Positions 51,520-58,229 of a DNA stretch of 64,000 nt are shown one piece after another. Positions within the stretch are counted from its first letter, which is position 1, and every line of letters starts with the position of its first letter. The stretch is from positions 62,001 to 126,000 of the forward strand of contig JAUXVD010000003.1 in NCBI GenBank assembly GCA_030684575.1. The letters are read 5' to 3'. A program made the position numbers and the translations under genes. Origin of the DNA: Nitrospirota bacterium. GTDB taxonomy: Bacteria > Nitrospirota > Nitrospiria > Nitrospirales > Nitrospiraceae. Under the pieces are notes generated by a model that did no database searches, was not told the DNA's origin, and saw nothing but the letters and a program-made list of their open reading frames with translations.

Positions 51520-52074
51520 CTACCATTTTCCCAGCCAGCCTCGACAGCCTGCGAAGTAGGCAAAGACAGCGATGCTCAGGATAATCGCCATCTGGATCAC
51601 ATGCTGCACTAAGACATCCGGTGCAATCCATCGACTCATAAATAAGAGTCCGGCCGATACGACGGTGACCGCAAGTGTCGTACGCTTCGGGCAGGGGCGA
51701 AGACGGCGGCCCTCATAGGATAAGATAATCCATACCACGATCCATCCGAGTGCTCCGATAATCATGGCACCGGCTAAGTCGGTGAGGCTGAGGAGGATGC
51801 TGTCCTGCACGAGACTGAGGGATTTCCGCATCCCTAGCTCCGGACGAATGCGGATCCATTCACCGATCGTCAGGAGTATCCATACCACAATCATTCCGAT
51901 GGCAAACCCCTCTTGGGTCATGCCGGAATTTTGTGTACGACGCTCAACCCTTCGGAAGGTGCCGGTCGTTGTACCAGTAACTTTGCGGATCTGCGGAGTC
52001 AGGTCGTACCCACATTCGCAAGTGGAGGCGGAGTCGAAATTGGTAAATAAACAGCGGGGGCATTCGAGCGGCAT
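51520..52074 (-). CDS. zinc-ribbon membrane protein, function unknown
   Basis: A 184-residue protein: an N-terminal zinc ribbon (CPRCLF, then CECGYD; C-x2-C and C-x-C) followed by four predicted membrane spans (GFAIGMIVVWILLTIGEWI; SLTDLAGAMIIGALGWIVVWIIL; TLAVTVVSAGLLFMS; VIQMAIILSIAVFAYFAG). The ribbon-plus-spans design occurs in many uncharacterised bacterial proteins. Its stop lies 5 bases from the tRNA-Leu CCA end. No family is recognised. Confidence 0.6.
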   Translation of the reverse strand: MPLECPRCLFTNFDSASTCECGYDLTPQIRKVTGTTTGTFRRVERRTQNSGMTQEGFAIGMIVVWILLTIGEWIRIRPELGMRKSLSLVQDSILLSLTDLAGAMIIGALGWIVVWIILSYEGRRLRPCPKRTTLAVTVVSAGLLFMSRWIAPDVLVQHVIQMAIILSIAVFAYFAGCRGWLGKW

Positions 52075-52197
52075 ATCGAGACTCAGTGCTTTCTGCTAGA
52101 ATCCATCGCCGATGCGGCTCTCGGGATGTGGGTCAAGTCCGCCATCGGAGTTCTCTCTTGCCACAAGAGCGTTCTGGAAATCTGTTCAGAGGATCTC

Positions 52198-52605
52198 ATG
52201 ATCAGTCGGTCGCTCTCTCAACGTTTTCTGGTACTGGGAACGGTCTTCGCTGGATCTGCTGTAGCCGCAGGCGCCTTTGGCGCCCATGCACTCAAGGAGA
52301 TTCTTGACGCACATAGCCTGCAAGTATTCGATACCGCCACCCGGTATCAAATGTATCATGCCTTTGGGCTTTGTATAGTGTCTTGGGCAATTGATCGCTA
52401 CCCGGAACAGCGGCTTGAGCAGACAGGATGGCTCTTTACCCTCGGGATTCTTCTGTTTTCAGGCAGTCTGTATGTCGTGGCCCTGGCAGGGATACGATGG
52501 ATGGGAGCGGTGACCCCGATCGGCGGATTGGCGTTTTTGGCAGGTTGGGTTCTTTTGGGCTGGAGAATCTGGCGGGATGCTGGTCTCAGGAGGTCCGTAA
52601 GTTAG
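52198..52605 (+). CDS. DUF423 membrane protein (YgdD-like)
   Basis: A 135-residue protein with the DUF423 pattern: GAFGAHALKEIL near the N-terminus, then TRYQMYHAFGLCIV, LFTLGILLFSGSLYVVAL and TPIGGLAFLAGWVLLGWRI, three to four spans. The family is widespread and uncharacterised. The frame is open from 52126; GAGG at about 52190 supports the ATG at 52198. Its last 4 bases overlap the convergent gene at 52602. Confidence 0.85.
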   Translation: MISRSLSQRFLVLGTVFAGSAVAAGAFGAHALKEILDAHSLQVFDTATRYQMYHAFGLCIVSWAIDRYPEQRLEQTGWLFTLGILLFSGSLYVVALAGIRWMGAVTPIGGLAFLAGWVLLGWRIWRDAGLRRSVS

Positions 52606-53576
52606 GGCGTACAGCCGGCGGTTCTCTTCCCGCTGATGGATCCCCAGCCTCCTTGGGAATTCACAAAGGTCCCTTCGAGCCGCTTGCCTTCTTTGCTGAA
52701 TTGCAGACTATCTTCTTGGACTCGGCCATCGATTTCCCACCGTAGGTAGACGTTCTCACCCAATACGATTGTTTCCACGAGTCCCGGCACCGTCGCCTGC
52801 ATATGTCCAGTTGGCGGAAAGAGCAAGGACAGCTTTTGTTCTTGATGGTGTTGCTGATGGTTATGGATAATCCATTGCCAGGTTCCGCAGAGGCGGGCTT
52901 GCCCGCGGAGCTCGCGCACTCGATCTTTCCAGCTCCGTATCCGATCCCATTCCTGATAGCTGGCTTGCATGGCGTCTACTTCCAGGCGTGTGGCTCGTTC
53001 TAAGACCGTGACCAACAGGGGCGATGCAGATTCTCCCTGATTCGCCTTGGTCCATTCCGGGGAGGTCACCACCGTAGCGAGTTGATGGAGTGCCTCATGC
53101 CAGGAGGCATTGCCTTGTTGATTGAGCCAGGCGTGAGATGCGGTGGTTCCGGATAGTCGCTCGGGTATGGTAGTCAATTGCTGTTCTTTCACAGCCTGCC
53201 GGATGGTCGCCGCAAGTTGCCAGGCTGCCAGACTGCCCATCAGTCGCTGGGCCGCTGCGGTTAAGTCCGGCATCAGCAGCTCTTTCGCGAGCTTAGCAGG
53301 CAACGTGGTGGTTCCCACTGTCCGCGCTGCATCCACCATGTGAATGGCGGGACCGATCGTCGATACAAAGAGGGTGAGGGCTCCCTTATCAGACTCCAGT
53401 TTAAGCAGTTGCTCGGAATGAGCCTGCATGATCGACGAGAAACCCGGTATGGCAGTTGGAAGAGATTCGTCTGCCTTGGCATTCAGGCATGCCCCGAATA
53501 CAGAGACGAGCAGGATGGTAATGACGAAGCCGATAGGAGATTGGGCTGGTCGAATGAACGGGATATTATGACGCAT
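52602..53576 (-). CDS. putative exported protein, function unknown
   Basis: A 324-residue protein from an ATG at 53576 (the frame opens at 53612). It begins with a basic stretch and a hydrophobic segment (IGFVITILLVSVFGACLNAKA) that fits a signal peptide. The body is helical (AQRLMGSLAAWQLAATIRQAVKEQQ, ARLEVDAMQASYQEWDRIRSWKDRVREL) and ends with a beta-rich region of about 80 residues (GTWQWIIHNHQQ to SISGKRTAG), like a small calycin- or hydrolase-inhibitor-type barrel. No family is recognised. Confidence 0.55.
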   Translation of the reverse strand: MRHNIPFIRPAQSPIGFVITILLVSVFGACLNAKADESLPTAIPGFSSIMQAHSEQLLKLESDKGALTLFVSTIGPAIHMVDAARTVGTTTLPAKLAKELLMPDLTAAAQRLMGSLAAWQLAATIRQAVKEQQLTTIPERLSGTTASHAWLNQQGNASWHEALHQLATVVTSPEWTKANQGESASPLLVTVLERATRLEVDAMQASYQEWDRIRSWKDRVRELRGQARLCGTWQWIIHNHQQHHQEQKLSLLFPPTGHMQATVPGLVETIVLGENVYLRWEIDGRVQEDSLQFSKEGKRLEGTFVNSQGGWGSISGKRTAGCTP

Positions 53577-53648
53577 GACGTTACTGTACCCTGCCTCTAT
53601 AGGTAGGCTCAAGCCTGGACTCTTCAGATTGTACGAAGTGGTATTTCG

Positions 53649-54476
53649 CTAAAGGCCCTGGTAGCAGGTCTTGAGAAAGGCCGCGGTTGCTTCCCAGGCT
53701 TCCGCTGTCGCATCGGCACGATAGCTCTCCACACGTTGTTCATTGCAAAACGCATGGGGGGCATTGGGGTAAGTCCGGATCTCGACCCGCTTCTTATGTT
53801 CAGTTGCAGCGGCACGTAACCGATCCACATGCGAAGCCGGCGCCCACTGATCCAGCCCGGCTTGATGATAGAGCAGGGGAGGATAGAGGCTGCTGATCTC
53901 TGTTTCCGATTGTGGCACTCGCCCGTAGTAGGAGACTGCGGCTCGAAGTCGTTTCCGTAGACAGGCGAACCGGATCGCGTACGATCCACCCATGCCGTAG
54001 CCGACGACGCCATGGATATTTTGCTTAATGTGGTCGCGCGTATTGAGAAACTCACAGCAGGAATTGATATCTTGGAGGACGAGCGTCTCATTCAGCTTGC
54101 TCATCAGGGCATCTGCAACTTCTGCATTGGCCGTGACCATGCCGCCTAGCCGCCCGTACAGGTTTGGGATGATGACGCCATATCCCTCACAAGCCAATCT
54201 GGCGCCGAGATCTTTGATTTGCGCGGTCAGTCCCCATTCTTCGTGCAAGAGCACAAGCCCGGGGTAGAGTCCTTTGGGTTGAGGCCAAAACTGGACGCAT
54301 TCCACATGGACATGTTTCGAGACGCGTGTCTGGATATAGGGATCGACGGCGGCATCTGTCAGCGTAGGAATGGCGATGCCGCTCGGAAAGCGTGCTGTGC
54401 CGGTACCGATTTGATCTAACGTAAAGGGGGCGATGGTGGATATCATTGCGGCAATCTCTTTTCCGTCTAAGGCCAT
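53649..54476 (-). CDS. dienelactone-hydrolase-family protein lacking its nucleophile
   Basis: A 275-residue alpha/beta-hydrolase of the DLH family (LVLLHEEWGLTAQIKDLGARLACEGYGVIIPNLYGR, E79 or E80 as the usual glutamate). The nucleophile elbow reads GVVGYGMGGSYA: the cysteine (G-x-C-x-G-G) is glycine at residue 161. The aspartate (D209 in LDQWAP) and histidine (H241 in NAPHAF) remain. So dienelactone hydrolysis is not expected; a binding role or another chemistry is possible. A promoter at 54522-54551 rules out the long frame from 54611 and supports ATG at 54476 (or 54446). Confidence 0.8.
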   Translation of the reverse strand: MALDGKEIAAMISTIAPFTLDQIGTGTARFPSGIAIPTLTDAAVDPYIQTRVSKHVHVECVQFWPQPKGLYPGLVLLHEEWGLTAQIKDLGARLACEGYGVIIPNLYGRLGGMVTANAEVADALMSKLNETLVLQDINSCCEFLNTRDHIKQNIHGVVGYGMGGSYAIRFACLRKRLRAAVSYYGRVPQSETEISSLYPPLLYHQAGLDQWAPASHVDRLRAAATEHKKRVEIRTYPNAPHAFCNEQRVESYRADATAEAWEATAAFLKTCYQGL

Positions 54477-54521
54477 GCTGAGTGTTGTCGTGTTGAGACG
54501 GGATTCATGCGATGCGGGCGT

Positions 54522-54551
54522 ACTATAGGGACCAGGTTGTCGGGTTGTCAA
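54522..54551 (-). promoter_or_regulatory. promoter of the DLH-like gene
   Basis: Minus strand perfect TTGACA (54546-54551), 18-base spacer, TATAGT (54522-54527), about 46 bases before the ATG at 54476. It is back to back with a plus-strand promoter at 54577. Confidence 0.65.
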
Positions 54552-54576
54552 TCTTCCAGCACGGGGTGAGGGGGAG

Positions 54577-54605
54577 TTGACCCCGCCTGTGCGGCCGACT
54601 ACTGT
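54577..54605 (+). promoter_or_regulatory. promoter of the Gfo/Idh/MocA gene
   Basis: TTGACC (54577-54582), 17-base spacer, TACTGT (54600-54605). The -35 elements of this and the divergent DLH promoter are only 25 bases apart, so one regulator could control both. Confidence 0.45.
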
Positions 54606-54635
54606 TTTCACAGCGATTGGGTTTGGAGGACGACG

Positions 54636-55616
54636 ATGTCACTGAAAATTGGTCTGATTGGTGTCGGTCGGCACGGCAGTCGGTATATCCATCATCTGCT
54701 CCATGATCTGCCAGAAGCGAGCCTCGTCGCTCTCTGCCGCAAACGAACCGGAGAGGGGTTGTCGTCACTTTCGACGAATGACATTCCTCTCTATGGGGAC
54801 TATCGCGTCTTGATCGCCGATCCACGGGTAGAGGCGATCGTTGTGGTGACCCCTCCGTGGCTTTCGCCTGAGGTCTGTCTCGAGGCGGTGAAAGCGGGGA
54901 AGCCGATTCTTATCGAAAAGCCGTTAGCGCCGACAGGTGATGAAGCTAGGGCAATGGTGAGGGCAGCAGAAGAGGCCGGCGTGCTGCTGATGACCGCACA
55001 GACCATGCGTTTCGACTCAACGATTCTGTTGCTGAAAGATCACTTGCCGGAGATCGGCCGGCTCCGGTACGCCACCTTCACCAGTCGGATTGAAACGAAA
55101 GCCAGTGCTCAGGTCCAGGCACCGAAAGCAGGCCAACGCGGGGCGCTCTTGGAAGTTGGAATCCACCTGTTGGATTTGGTGCCTTTTCTCACCGGCGAGA
55201 CAGTGGTCCATGTCCGGTGTGAATTGGACCAGCTCCCGACGATTGGACCCGAGACGATGGCGATCGTGCAGGTTCAGACGACGAACGGTCTACGATGCGT
55301 CATGGACATTGCACGAGTGTCAGCAGGGCGGGTGGCGAGAACGGAATGGGTGGGAACCCATGGGCAGCTTAGCGCCGATTGGTGTCACCATCGAGTGACC
55401 GCGGTCATCGGTGACCGCGGTCCTCAGGAATGGGAGGTTCAACCGCAGCAGACCATTCTTGCCACGCTCCGGGCTTTCGTCCATGCTATTGAGACGAAGA
55501 CTCCTCCACCGATCACCGGGCGTGATGGCTGTCGAGCTGTCGAGGTGGCCGATGCCTGCTACCGTTCGGCAGAACAGGGCGGGGCCGTCGTCGGTCTCAA
55601 CACTCGTGAAGCGTGA
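54636..55616 (+). CDS. Gfo/Idh/MocA-family NAD(P)-dependent oxidoreductase
   Basis: A 326-residue protein with an N-terminal Rossmann fold (MSLKIGLIGVGRHGSRYIHHL, G-x-G-x-x-G), the family motif EKPLAPTGDEA (EKP), and a C-terminal beta domain with GALLEVGIHLLDLVPFLTG, where the H is the usual catalytic histidine. Such enzymes oxidise or reduce sugars, cyclitols or derivatives with NAD(P). No sugar gene is nearby, so the substrate is unknown. Start ATG at 54636; an in-phase GGAGG lies upstream (54626 region). Confidence 0.88.
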   Translation: MSLKIGLIGVGRHGSRYIHHLLHDLPEASLVALCRKRTGEGLSSLSTNDIPLYGDYRVLIADPRVEAIVVVTPPWLSPEVCLEAVKAGKPILIEKPLAPTGDEARAMVRAAEEAGVLLMTAQTMRFDSTILLLKDHLPEIGRLRYATFTSRIETKASAQVQAPKAGQRGALLEVGIHLLDLVPFLTGETVVHVRCELDQLPTIGPETMAIVQVQTTNGLRCVMDIARVSAGRVARTEWVGTHGQLSADWCHHRVTAVIGDRGPQEWEVQPQQTILATLRAFVHAIETKTPPPITGRDGCRAVEVADACYRSAEQGGAVVGLNTREA

Positions 55617-55654
55617 AGCGTCGTTTGCGAACGACGCATACTCTTGGGGCTCTG

Positions 55655-55891
55655 CTAGGCATCGGCGACGATGTGCGTATCGGTTTCTTCTACTCCCTCG
55701 ATTTGGTGAATCTTCGTGATCACGACATCCGAGAGGGCGCGTTCGTCCGCAACACTGATGAACACAATGATGTCAGGACGCCCGAAACAGGAATGGGCCT
55801 GCTCGACGCCGGGCAGGCGTTTGAGTACCTGGAGCACATCTTTCGTTCGTCCTGCTTTGACCTTGATTAGGATATAAGCTTTCGTGGCCAT
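55655..55891 (-). CDS. stand-alone Lrp/AsnC ligand-binding (RAM) domain
   Basis: A 78-residue protein matching only the C-terminal domain of Lrp/AsnC regulators (KAYILIKVKAGRTKDVLQVLKRLPGVEQAHSCFGRPDIIVFISVADERALSDVV). The DNA-binding helix-turn-helix half is absent. Such stand-alone modules bind amino acids and form ring oligomers. It lies 18 bases before the next gene on the same strand (transcribed after it), so both may be one transcript. Ligand unknown. Confidence 0.82.
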   Translation of the reverse strand: MATKAYILIKVKAGRTKDVLQVLKRLPGVEQAHSCFGRPDIIVFISVADERALSDVVITKIHQIEGVEETDTHIVADA

Positions 55892-55909
55892 TCTGTCCTC
55901 CTGTTGCGG

Positions 55910-56527
55910 TTACTGTGCGCCGCCCGGCATCTCCCGCCGTCGTTGCGCAAAGACCTGGTGAATATGCTGCCCGCGTTGCTCGAAGGTGATACGTGCCTTT
56001 GCGACGAGCTCCATTAACCAACCGAAATCCTCCAGGCTTACATTGAATTGACGAAAGCCTGGCGTTAACCGCTCACGCTGATCGATCGCCATGACGCTCC
56101 AGCTTTGATTGAGCGCCTCCAGTACCTCTGAAGTCCAGCCTGACGAACGGAATCGTAACAGGGTTTCGGCTGTAGGGCCTTTCTCTTGTGCCTCCAACGC
56201 CTGATTCAGAAATAGATACACGTTCGGATCGGTGCTCTTCATGAACACCGATTGAAATTGAATGACCACCTTGATGACGCGATTCGCCTCGGGAGTGCCT
56301 TCAGGTGGAAGGACCTCGGCATCCTGCAAGATCGCGAGTACGGCCATCGACGCGCCAATTGGTCCGGCGGCGGTGCCGGTTCGACCAGGCGTTTGGGCTT
56401 GGACTGGACTACCTGCCCCCATGATGATGGCACCAAGGAGCACACAGACAGGGAGGGAGCCAGGCAATATGATTGGTGAAGTAGGTTTCGATAGAAGCGA
56501 CTGCAGGGAGTGGGAGGGGACTGGCAT
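55910..56527 (-). CDS. putative exported protein, function unknown
   Basis: A frame of 205 residues with a hydrophobic segment (SLPVCVLLGAIIMGAGSPVQA) ending in an AQA-like cleavage site, preceded by about 25 residues, so the true start may be further downstream. The mature part is helical (RVIKVVIQFQSVFMKSTDPNVYLFLNQALEAQEKG, LTPGFRQFNVSLEDFGWLMELVAKARITFEQ). No family is recognised. It is on the minus strand, upstream of the RAM-domain gene. Confidence 0.5.
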   Translation of the reverse strand: MPVPSHSLQSLLSKPTSPIILPGSLPVCVLLGAIIMGAGSPVQAQTPGRTGTAAGPIGASMAVLAILQDAEVLPPEGTPEANRVIKVVIQFQSVFMKSTDPNVYLFLNQALEAQEKGPTAETLLRFRSSGWTSEVLEALNQSWSVMAIDQRERLTPGFRQFNVSLEDFGWLMELVAKARITFEQRGQHIHQVFAQRRREMPGGAQ

Positions 56528-56699: not shown

Positions 56700-58229
56700 A
56701 TGCTCGCTAAGGTTCTGAGTGCGGCACTCGTTGGAATCGACGCACATCTGATCGATGTGGAAGTCGATATTGCCGGAGGGCTTCCGCAATTCTCGGTCGT
56801 TGGTCTTCCAGATGCCACCGTCAGAGAGAGCCGTGATCGGGTTCGCTCCGCGCTGAAGAATACGGGCTTCCATTTTCCCGCCAAGAAAATCACCGTCAAT
56901 CTCGCTCCTGCCGGCATCAAGAAGGAAGGGTCCGGGATCGACCTGGCGATTGCTATTGGGATTCTTGTTGCGGAAGAAGTGATTCCGACCGAGCATGTAC
57001 GGGGCTGCGTCTGCGTCGGTGAGCTCTCGCTGGACGGACAGATCAAGGCCATTACCGGGGCCTTATCCATTGGCATCGCCTGTCGGTCTGACCATCGCCT
57101 GCTCTTGCCGGCTGAGAATAGCCAAGAGGCCGCGATGGTGCAGGGCGTCATGGCCTATCCACTCCACACGCTCCCCGAGGCCGTAGCCTTTTTGAATGGT
57201 ACGGTGAGGCTGACTCCGGCCCAGGTAGACCGGGACCGTTTCTTTACCACGCGTCCTGCGGAAGATGACGACTATGGCGATGTGAAGGGGCAGGATCACG
57301 CCAAGCGTGCCCTGGAAATTGCTGCGGCTGGAGGCCACAATCTCTTGATGGTAGGGCCTCCCGGTTCCGGCAAGACGATGTTGGCCAAACGCCTCCCGAC
57401 GATTCTCCCCCTCATGGAGCAAGAAGAAGCGATCGAGACGACTCGCGTCCATAGCATATCGGGACAACTGACCGCTGATCGCCCGTTATTAACGGTCCGT
57501 CCCTTTCGCGCACCACACCATAGTATTTCTGATGCTGGTCTCATCGGAGGCGGGACCATTCCACGGCCTGGAGAGGTATCGCTCGCCCATAATGGTGTGT
57601 TGTTTTTAGACGAATCTCCCGAGTTTCGACGTCCCGTTTTAGACGGATTGCGACAGCCGCTGGAAGACGGGCATGTGACTTTGACTAGGGCCAGCGGCTC
57701 GCTTCGCTACCCGGCGCATTTCATGTTGATCGCGGCGATGAATCCCTGTCCTTGCGGTTATTATGGTGATCGGACGCGTGAATGTCTTTGCAGCCCGCAG
57801 CAAATCCGCCGTTATCGAGCCAAATTGTCGGGGCCGCTCCAGGACCGTATCGACATGCATATTGAGGTTCCCCCGGTCTCTGTGCGTGACTTGCACGATC
57901 GTGGGCCTATGCCGGAAAGTTCCGCCACCATTCGATCGCGCGTCCTGGCGGCACGTGATCGGCAACTCCACCGGTATCGTCAAGATGGGATCCACACAAA
58001 TGCCCAGTTGAAGCCGCGGCTCCTGAAGCGGTATTGTGGCCTGTCGGTTCCGGCTCAGGAGCTTCTGGAGCAGGCACTCACGAAGCTTGGGTTATCTGCG
58101 CGAGCCCATGGGCGTATCGTGCGTGTGGCGAGGACCATTGCCGATCTCGCGGGTTCTGATACGATTGAGCCTGTACATCTGGCCGAGGCGATTCAATATC
58201 GCAGTCTCGACCGTCGAATGGATTTTTGA
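56700..58229 (+). CDS. comM: ComM/YifB-family AAA+ ATPase (Mg chelatase-like)
   Basis: A 509-residue AAA+ protein. The N-terminal domain (VDVEVDIAGGLPQFSVVGLPDATVRESRDRVRSAL) and NLAPAGIKKEGSGIDL are diagnostic. Walker A is GPPGSGKTMLAKR, Walker B is VLFLDESPEF, and the arginine finger region is near RFPGEV/SGPLQDRIDM; MNPCPCGYYGD is the C-terminal zinc motif. In Vibrio and Haemophilus, ComM is a DNA branch-migration helicase used in natural transformation; it is also found in bacteria not known to be competent. Confidence 0.93.
   Translation: MLAKVLSAALVGIDAHLIDVEVDIAGGLPQFSVVGLPDATVRESRDRVRSALKNTGFHFPAKKITVNLAPAGIKKEGSGIDLAIAIGILVAEEVIPTEHVRGCVCVGELSLDGQIKAITGALSIGIACRSDHRLLLPAENSQEAAMVQGVMAYPLHTLPEAVAFLNGTVRLTPAQVDRDRFFTTRPAEDDDYGDVKGQDHAKRALEIAAAGGHNLLMVGPPGSGKTMLAKRLPTILPLMEQEEAIETTRVHSISGQLTADRPLLTVRPFRAPHHSISDAGLIGGGTIPRPGEVSLAHNGVLFLDESPEFRRPVLDGLRQPLEDGHVTLTRASGSLRYPAHFMLIAAMNPCPCGYYGDRTRECLCSPQQIRRYRAKLSGPLQDRIDMHIEVPPVSVRDLHDRGPMPESSATIRSRVLAARDRQLHRYRQDGIHTNAQLKPRLLKRYCGLSVPAQELLEQALTKLGLSARAHGRIVRVARTIADLAGSDTIEPVHLAEAIQYRSLDRRMDF

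Follow-up and report, generated by a model that had tools for sequence, protein, structure and literature searches.

The locus described here raises the question of why a gene of the dienelactone hydrolase (DLH) family encodes glycine at the position of its catalytic nucleophile, and what its product might do instead. The window, meaning the whole stretch of DNA analysed, comprises 64,000 nucleotides of contig JAUXVD010000003.1 from a Nitrospirota bacterium. The gene, for which a previous sequence-only reading gave no strand, lies on the minus strand in an open frame spanning 53649-54611, with its TAG stop codon ending at 53649. Translation more likely starts at the ATG at 54446, ten codons inside the ATG at 54476, giving a predicted coding sequence of 53649-54446 and 265 aa rather than 275 aa. 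We prefer the lower ATG because most of the aligned relatives have 1 base fewer between the two start codons, which puts the upper ATG out of frame, and because GGAAAAGAGA lies 5′ of the lower one. Residue numbers nevertheless count from the ATG at 54476; Gly161 is therefore Gly151 from the lower start. The closest named matches to the gene are MAGs of Nitrospira sp. and N. lenta (among the best 80 of 223 loci), and the genome is that of a Nitrospira.

The window protein matches the Pfam DLH family (PF01738) over residues 67-270 with an E value of 4.4e-41 (141.3 bits against a cut-off of 21). An AlphaFold2 model (pLDDT 76, pTM 0.80, with a poor N-terminal part) finds DLHs as its best PDB matches, led by 3f67 (Z 30.2, rmsd 1.8 over 227 residues), and scores Z 26.5 against 1din. 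Family and predicted fold are thus common to this protein and to dienelactone hydrolase (PF01738; PDB 1din, 3f67, 9bld). Gly161 aligns with residue 123 of the solved DLHs, whilst Glu79, Asp209 and His241, the counterparts of DLH Glu36, Asp171 and His202, are all present. However, there are clear departures from the family. DLH has Cys123 in G-x-C-x-G-G where this protein has glycine. The equivalents of DLH Arg81 and Arg206, which we take to have a role in substrate binding, with Arg81 binding the carboxylate, are Ala/Asp and Asn/Asp and so are not kept. Moreover, there is an extra N-terminal stretch of ~50 residues with invariant positions of its own. Two assignments were rejected: that of Arg109 to the carboxylate-binding position Arg81, since it aligns with Arg66 and neither the Arg81 nor the Arg206 position is kept, and that of Cys244 as a substitute nucleophile, since its column changes 11 times on the tree described below.

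The glycine itself is encoded by GGC at 53994-53996 (minus strand), and the elbow reads GYGMGG in the window protein, as had been described. A check of Gly161 in orthologues had been proposed, and we carried it out on loci found by patterns that exclude the elbow; of the 223 loci obtained, the best 80 by similarity were used as a named set. Glycine occupies the site in 80/80 of these named Nitrospira loci, and in all rows compared from two families, here called f1 (31/31) and f3 (12/12). Among 123 distinct proteins with this glycine, the codon is GGC in 72, GGA in 32, GGG in 14 and GGT in 5. A sequencing error is excluded by the conservation in the named set together with the use of all four glycine codons. 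Hydrolase activity by the normal route has very probably been lost, in agreement with the sequence-only reading.

We placed these proteins on a tree of 111 rows, in which one third of the named rows were kept and 10 loci and duplicates were left out. The tree is midpoint rooted, and the software flagged long branches for one outgroup. On it the f1 and f3 proteins form a single clade (71 rows, support 100/99), hereafter the Gly clade. Its sister is a third family, f2 (6 rows, 100/99), with the Cys paralogues outside. The latter, found in the same genomes and reading GFCMGGSYAL at the elbow, are the closest intact relatives, at ~36-40% identity. The Cys or Ser that had been named as grounds for doubt if found in orthologues is absent from the Gly clade and appears solely in f2. 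At the six f2 loci with a readable nucleophile site, the residue is Cys in L046 and L049, Ser in L047 and L048, Gly in L050 and Asp in L051; at L090 the nucleophile stretch is missing. The four Cys or Ser proteins retain both Asp and His. In a comparison of gene order that covered six f2 loci, a ComM gene and a gene for a 205-aa protein adjoin the DLH gene in the f1 order at L048 and L049, and the 205-aa gene is also found at L047. Given these f1-type flanking genes, L047, L048 and L049 are true orthologues. We read Cys/Ser in f2 as the ancestral state; a sister family with Cys/Ser, and Cys paralogues outside it, imply that a nucleophile was present before glycine. By this tree the replacement of the nucleophile by glycine has occurred at least twice, on the stem of f1 and f3 and at L050.

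Two f2 sequences deserve separate mention. L050 (2770-3600), with its second, independent glycine, carries Arg at the His site. At L051 (1170-2000) the orthologue reads GFDMGA, with Asp in the nucleophile's place, and retains both Asp and His of the triad. The relatives preserve successive steps of the change: four residues (Cys, Ser, Asp or Gly) occupy a single site among orthologues, after which Asp and His are freed from constraint, as considered below.

The gene is near-universal in f1 and f3. A model of the Gly clade finds matches at E 1e-40 in 224/269 genomes of the class, although most of the rows weaker than ~1e-70 belong to the Cys paralogue. With the threshold set at E 1e-85, matches occur in 203/223 genomes of f1 and f3, and 5 of the 20 that lack one are >90% complete. 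Of 395 genomes sampled across the phylum, 140 have a match at 1e-45, and every one of these belongs to the class of the window genome. The gene had been judged unlikely to be a pseudogene, and selection bears this out. The median dN/dS (Nei-Gojobori; 26 same-genus sequences, 296 pairs) is 0.075, and 0.077 in 22 named sequences, compared with 0.064 for the Cys paralogue (23 sequences) and 0.16 for both the divergent Gfo/Idh gene and the downstream gene (20 sequences each), all of these values being rough since dS is near 1. One assembly's orthologue (L005, apparently the same as L093) carries an in-frame TAA, the one observation in favour of an error or a gene in decay. Against it stand the glycine in all 80 named loci, its four codons, the low dN/dS and a conserved promoter. 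Decay is excluded by these comparisons, which indicate strong purifying selection, and we regard the error-or-decay explanation as having a negligible chance of being correct.

If the gene is maintained, is it maintained as an enzyme? The codons for Asp209 (GAT, 53850-53852) and His241 (CAT, 53754-53756) lie on the minus strand, and the claim that both residues are kept is true of the window species. It does not extend across the Gly clade. Both are retained in only 83/123 distinct proteins, and whereas DLH holds its triad, here Asp and His drift: over 265 columns the median number of changes on the tree is 9, compared with 13 for D209 and 14 for H241. Among the named loci (best 80 of 223), Asp209 is found in 75/80 and His241 in 71/79, the others comprising seven Gln and one Arg. 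N. moscoviensis (L148) has Arg at this position. His241 is retained in 31/31 f1 rows vs 2/12 f3 rows. In the window's own genus, Asp is present in 26/27 rows and His in 26/26 readable rows, and the dyad may have a local role there. In the Cys paralogues (30 tree rows) the Asp and His change 0 times, although this control is weaker than it appears because the set is less diverged (median of 2 changes per column). Since D209 and H241 change more often than the median column, catalysis is not what preserves them; on this evidence the constraint on the entire triad has been lifted in the Gly clade.

Other residues never change. G161, H78, R109, N145, R174 and 23 further columns show zero changes on the tree, and the invariant set also takes in N153, R176, D41, P46, Y47 and, at the N-terminus, R29 and F30. 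An acid, either Glu or Asp, occupies position 79 in 123/123 distinct proteins, and His78 and Arg109 are each present in 123/123, Arg109 also in 80/80 named loci (best 80 of 223). Such residues could belong to a changed chemistry without a covalent nucleophile, in which acid 79 and His78, or the old Asp/His, activate water or a substrate proton. The invariance of acid 79, His78 and Arg109 and the low dN/dS would fit this, and a purely structural reading need not predict an invariant acid 79 and His78. Cofactor-free dioxygenases and hydroxynitrile lyases of the alpha/beta-hydrolase fold work in this way and do not perform ordinary ester hydrolysis, and non-hydrolytic chemistry on the fold is reported in the literature (PMC10548524, PMC3444685). 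However, these features were inherited rather than newly gained: the Cys paralogues share an unvarying acid 79 and Gly82, and His78 is already found in the sister proteins that have Cys or Ser. The drift of Asp209 and His241 across the clade also counts against this reading. A different catalytic group acting together with the old Asp/His, a form of what the sequence-only reading had allowed, is less likely than plain retirement; another group, formed by acid 79 and His78, may be at work, but overall we consider changed chemistry unlikely.

The release of the whole triad instead favours a retired, non-hydrolytic protein over one with a replacement catalytic group. We therefore propose, with a probability of roughly 0.7, that this is a DLH-family alpha/beta-hydrolase retired as a hydrolase and retained for another, non-hydrolytic task. 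The nucleophile changed to glycine before f1 and f3 split, after which Asp and His lost constraint, while the protein stayed under strong purifying selection. The tight turn of the nucleophile elbow tolerates glycine well, and glycine may have stayed, once the chemistry was unneeded, as the residue best suited to that turn. The invariant residues (H78, R109, N145 and others) would preserve a binding surface or pocket, by which the protein may bind a small molecule or another protein in the cytoplasm. Our confidence in any named function is low.

The sequence-only reading had also reported a strong promoter, TTGACA-N18-TATAGT, and this strong-looking predicted element proved to be widely conserved. 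It lies at 54522-54551 on the minus strand, with TTGACA at 54546-54551, an 18-base spacer and TATAGT at 54522-54527, and is exact in 117/122 Gly-clade loci tested; the five misses are L126, L129, L165 (17-base spacer), L213 and L217. It precedes none of the 32 Cys paralogues and none of the 6 f2 loci. As a control we examined nine other genes at the same named loci and took, from their upstream regions, the commonest pair of hexamers separated by 15-19 bases. The best pair among these occurs in 27/52 loci, and that of ComM in 35/70; a Gfo/Idh gene gives 64/77, which is the same promoter site read from the other side. Under the control's trimming, the promoter pair precedes the glycine gene in 70/79, a constancy well beyond that of any pair found upstream of the eight other nearby genes. 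The ComM pair, TTGAAA-N17-TATAAT, lies before a ComM-like gene at 56700 and upstream. The persistence in two families of an 18-base spacer and of TATAGT, in place of TATAAT, suggests that something beyond a generic promoter is conserved. Six TTGACA/TATAGT matches with spacers of 16-19 occur in the window genome, compared with two for a reversed-pattern control. A regulon sharing the promoter was considered and rejected, the ORFs at the five other genome sites showing no common theme. No Rfam match to an RNA element in the leader was found within 52000-56000.

Directly 3′ of the gene and on the same strand lies a gene for a protein of 324 aa (52602-53576, minus strand; family size ~300-385 aa). 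It adjoins the glycine gene in 136/143 rows with enough flank (119/143 with a narrower flanking window), 7 being without it; with the narrower window it was absent beside the Cys paralogue (0/29 rows) and the f2 gene (0/7 rows). The family is found at 1e-8 in 211/269 genomes of the class, and in five genomes of f2 and f4 only its C-terminal domain (CGTWQW-x2-HNH) was matched. The window protein matches no Pfam family, and matches among other members are weak and scattered, the best being to the lipocalin-like GH43_C (0.0024, 1/17). A model (pLDDT 85) consists of a helical part and a C-terminal beta-strand domain; it has no PDB match at E <=0.001, and small beta barrels head the remaining rows with E values of 0.02 and weaker, on which we place no reliance. 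An N-terminal hydrophobic stretch reads by eye as a signal peptide and the protein is probably secreted, whereas the glycine protein has no export signal by eye. A secreted protein and a cytoplasmic one point to a shared pathway rather than a direct complex, and we consider the former probable. The two genes may be transcribed together. More tentatively, they may form a core two-gene unit specific to Nitrospirales, in which a cytoplasmic DLH-fold ligand sensor or binder and a secreted helical/beta-barrel protein, under a frozen promoter giving fixed high expression and both near-universal in the nitrite-oxidising/comammox families, serve one envelope or metabolite-handling function. What emerges is a conserved but uncharacterised pair of genes whose promoter is unusually constant; in Nitrospira genomes the label 'dienelactone hydrolase' is misleading for the first of them.

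The Cys paralogue offers a further explanation, namely that the glycine protein is a regulatory or stabilising subunit of this intact enzyme, like the dead partners of live enzymes. The paralogue retains E-R-C-D-H in 29/30 tree rows, with one Ser at the nucleophile. Both forms co-occur in many genomes, and the five further second copies examined are all Cys forms with Asp and His. However, the window genome has no Cys paralogue at E 1e-3, holding the glycine gene and one weak match of another subfamily, which makes a partner role unlikely; three genomes that are 98-99% complete (G017, G018 and G023) and the f3 genomes examined likewise have the glycine gene or weak matches only. Moreover, the paralogue lacks the N-terminal stretch and shares neither the promoter nor the neighbour. 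We judge this explanation very improbable, and retirement to a non-hydrolytic task remains the preferred reading.

Judged by its sequences, the Gly clade has the pattern by which a pseudoenzyme is recognised, a catalytic residue lost across orthologues of a protein that is itself conserved. Among titles on DLH in Nitrospira and a part of the matching literature on pseudoenzymes we found no description of this case. The type of event is already known from DPP10, DPP6 and NDRG3. In PMC4350108, DPP10 is described as having its catalytic serine changed to Gly (GKGYGG), with Asp and His present and the shape of the elbow unchanged, and putting the serine back did not restore activity; in DPP6 the serine is changed to Asp. 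The likeness extends to both residues, glycine in the Gly clade and Asp at the same site in sister family f2, and DPP10 is an exact parallel. DPP10 and DPP6 differ in being human membrane homologues of S9B peptidases, with a beta-propeller, that modulate Kv4 channels and do not belong to the DLH family. NDRG3, according to PMC7022630, has an alpha/beta-hydrolase fold reported as non-enzymatic with its triad replaced, but it is eukaryotic and of an unrelated subfamily, and all three of its triad residues are replaced and its pocket blocked. Dead alpha/beta-hydrolases are thus best known from animals (DPP10, NDRG), whereas the putative example described here is a near-core gene of an environmentally central bacterial order.
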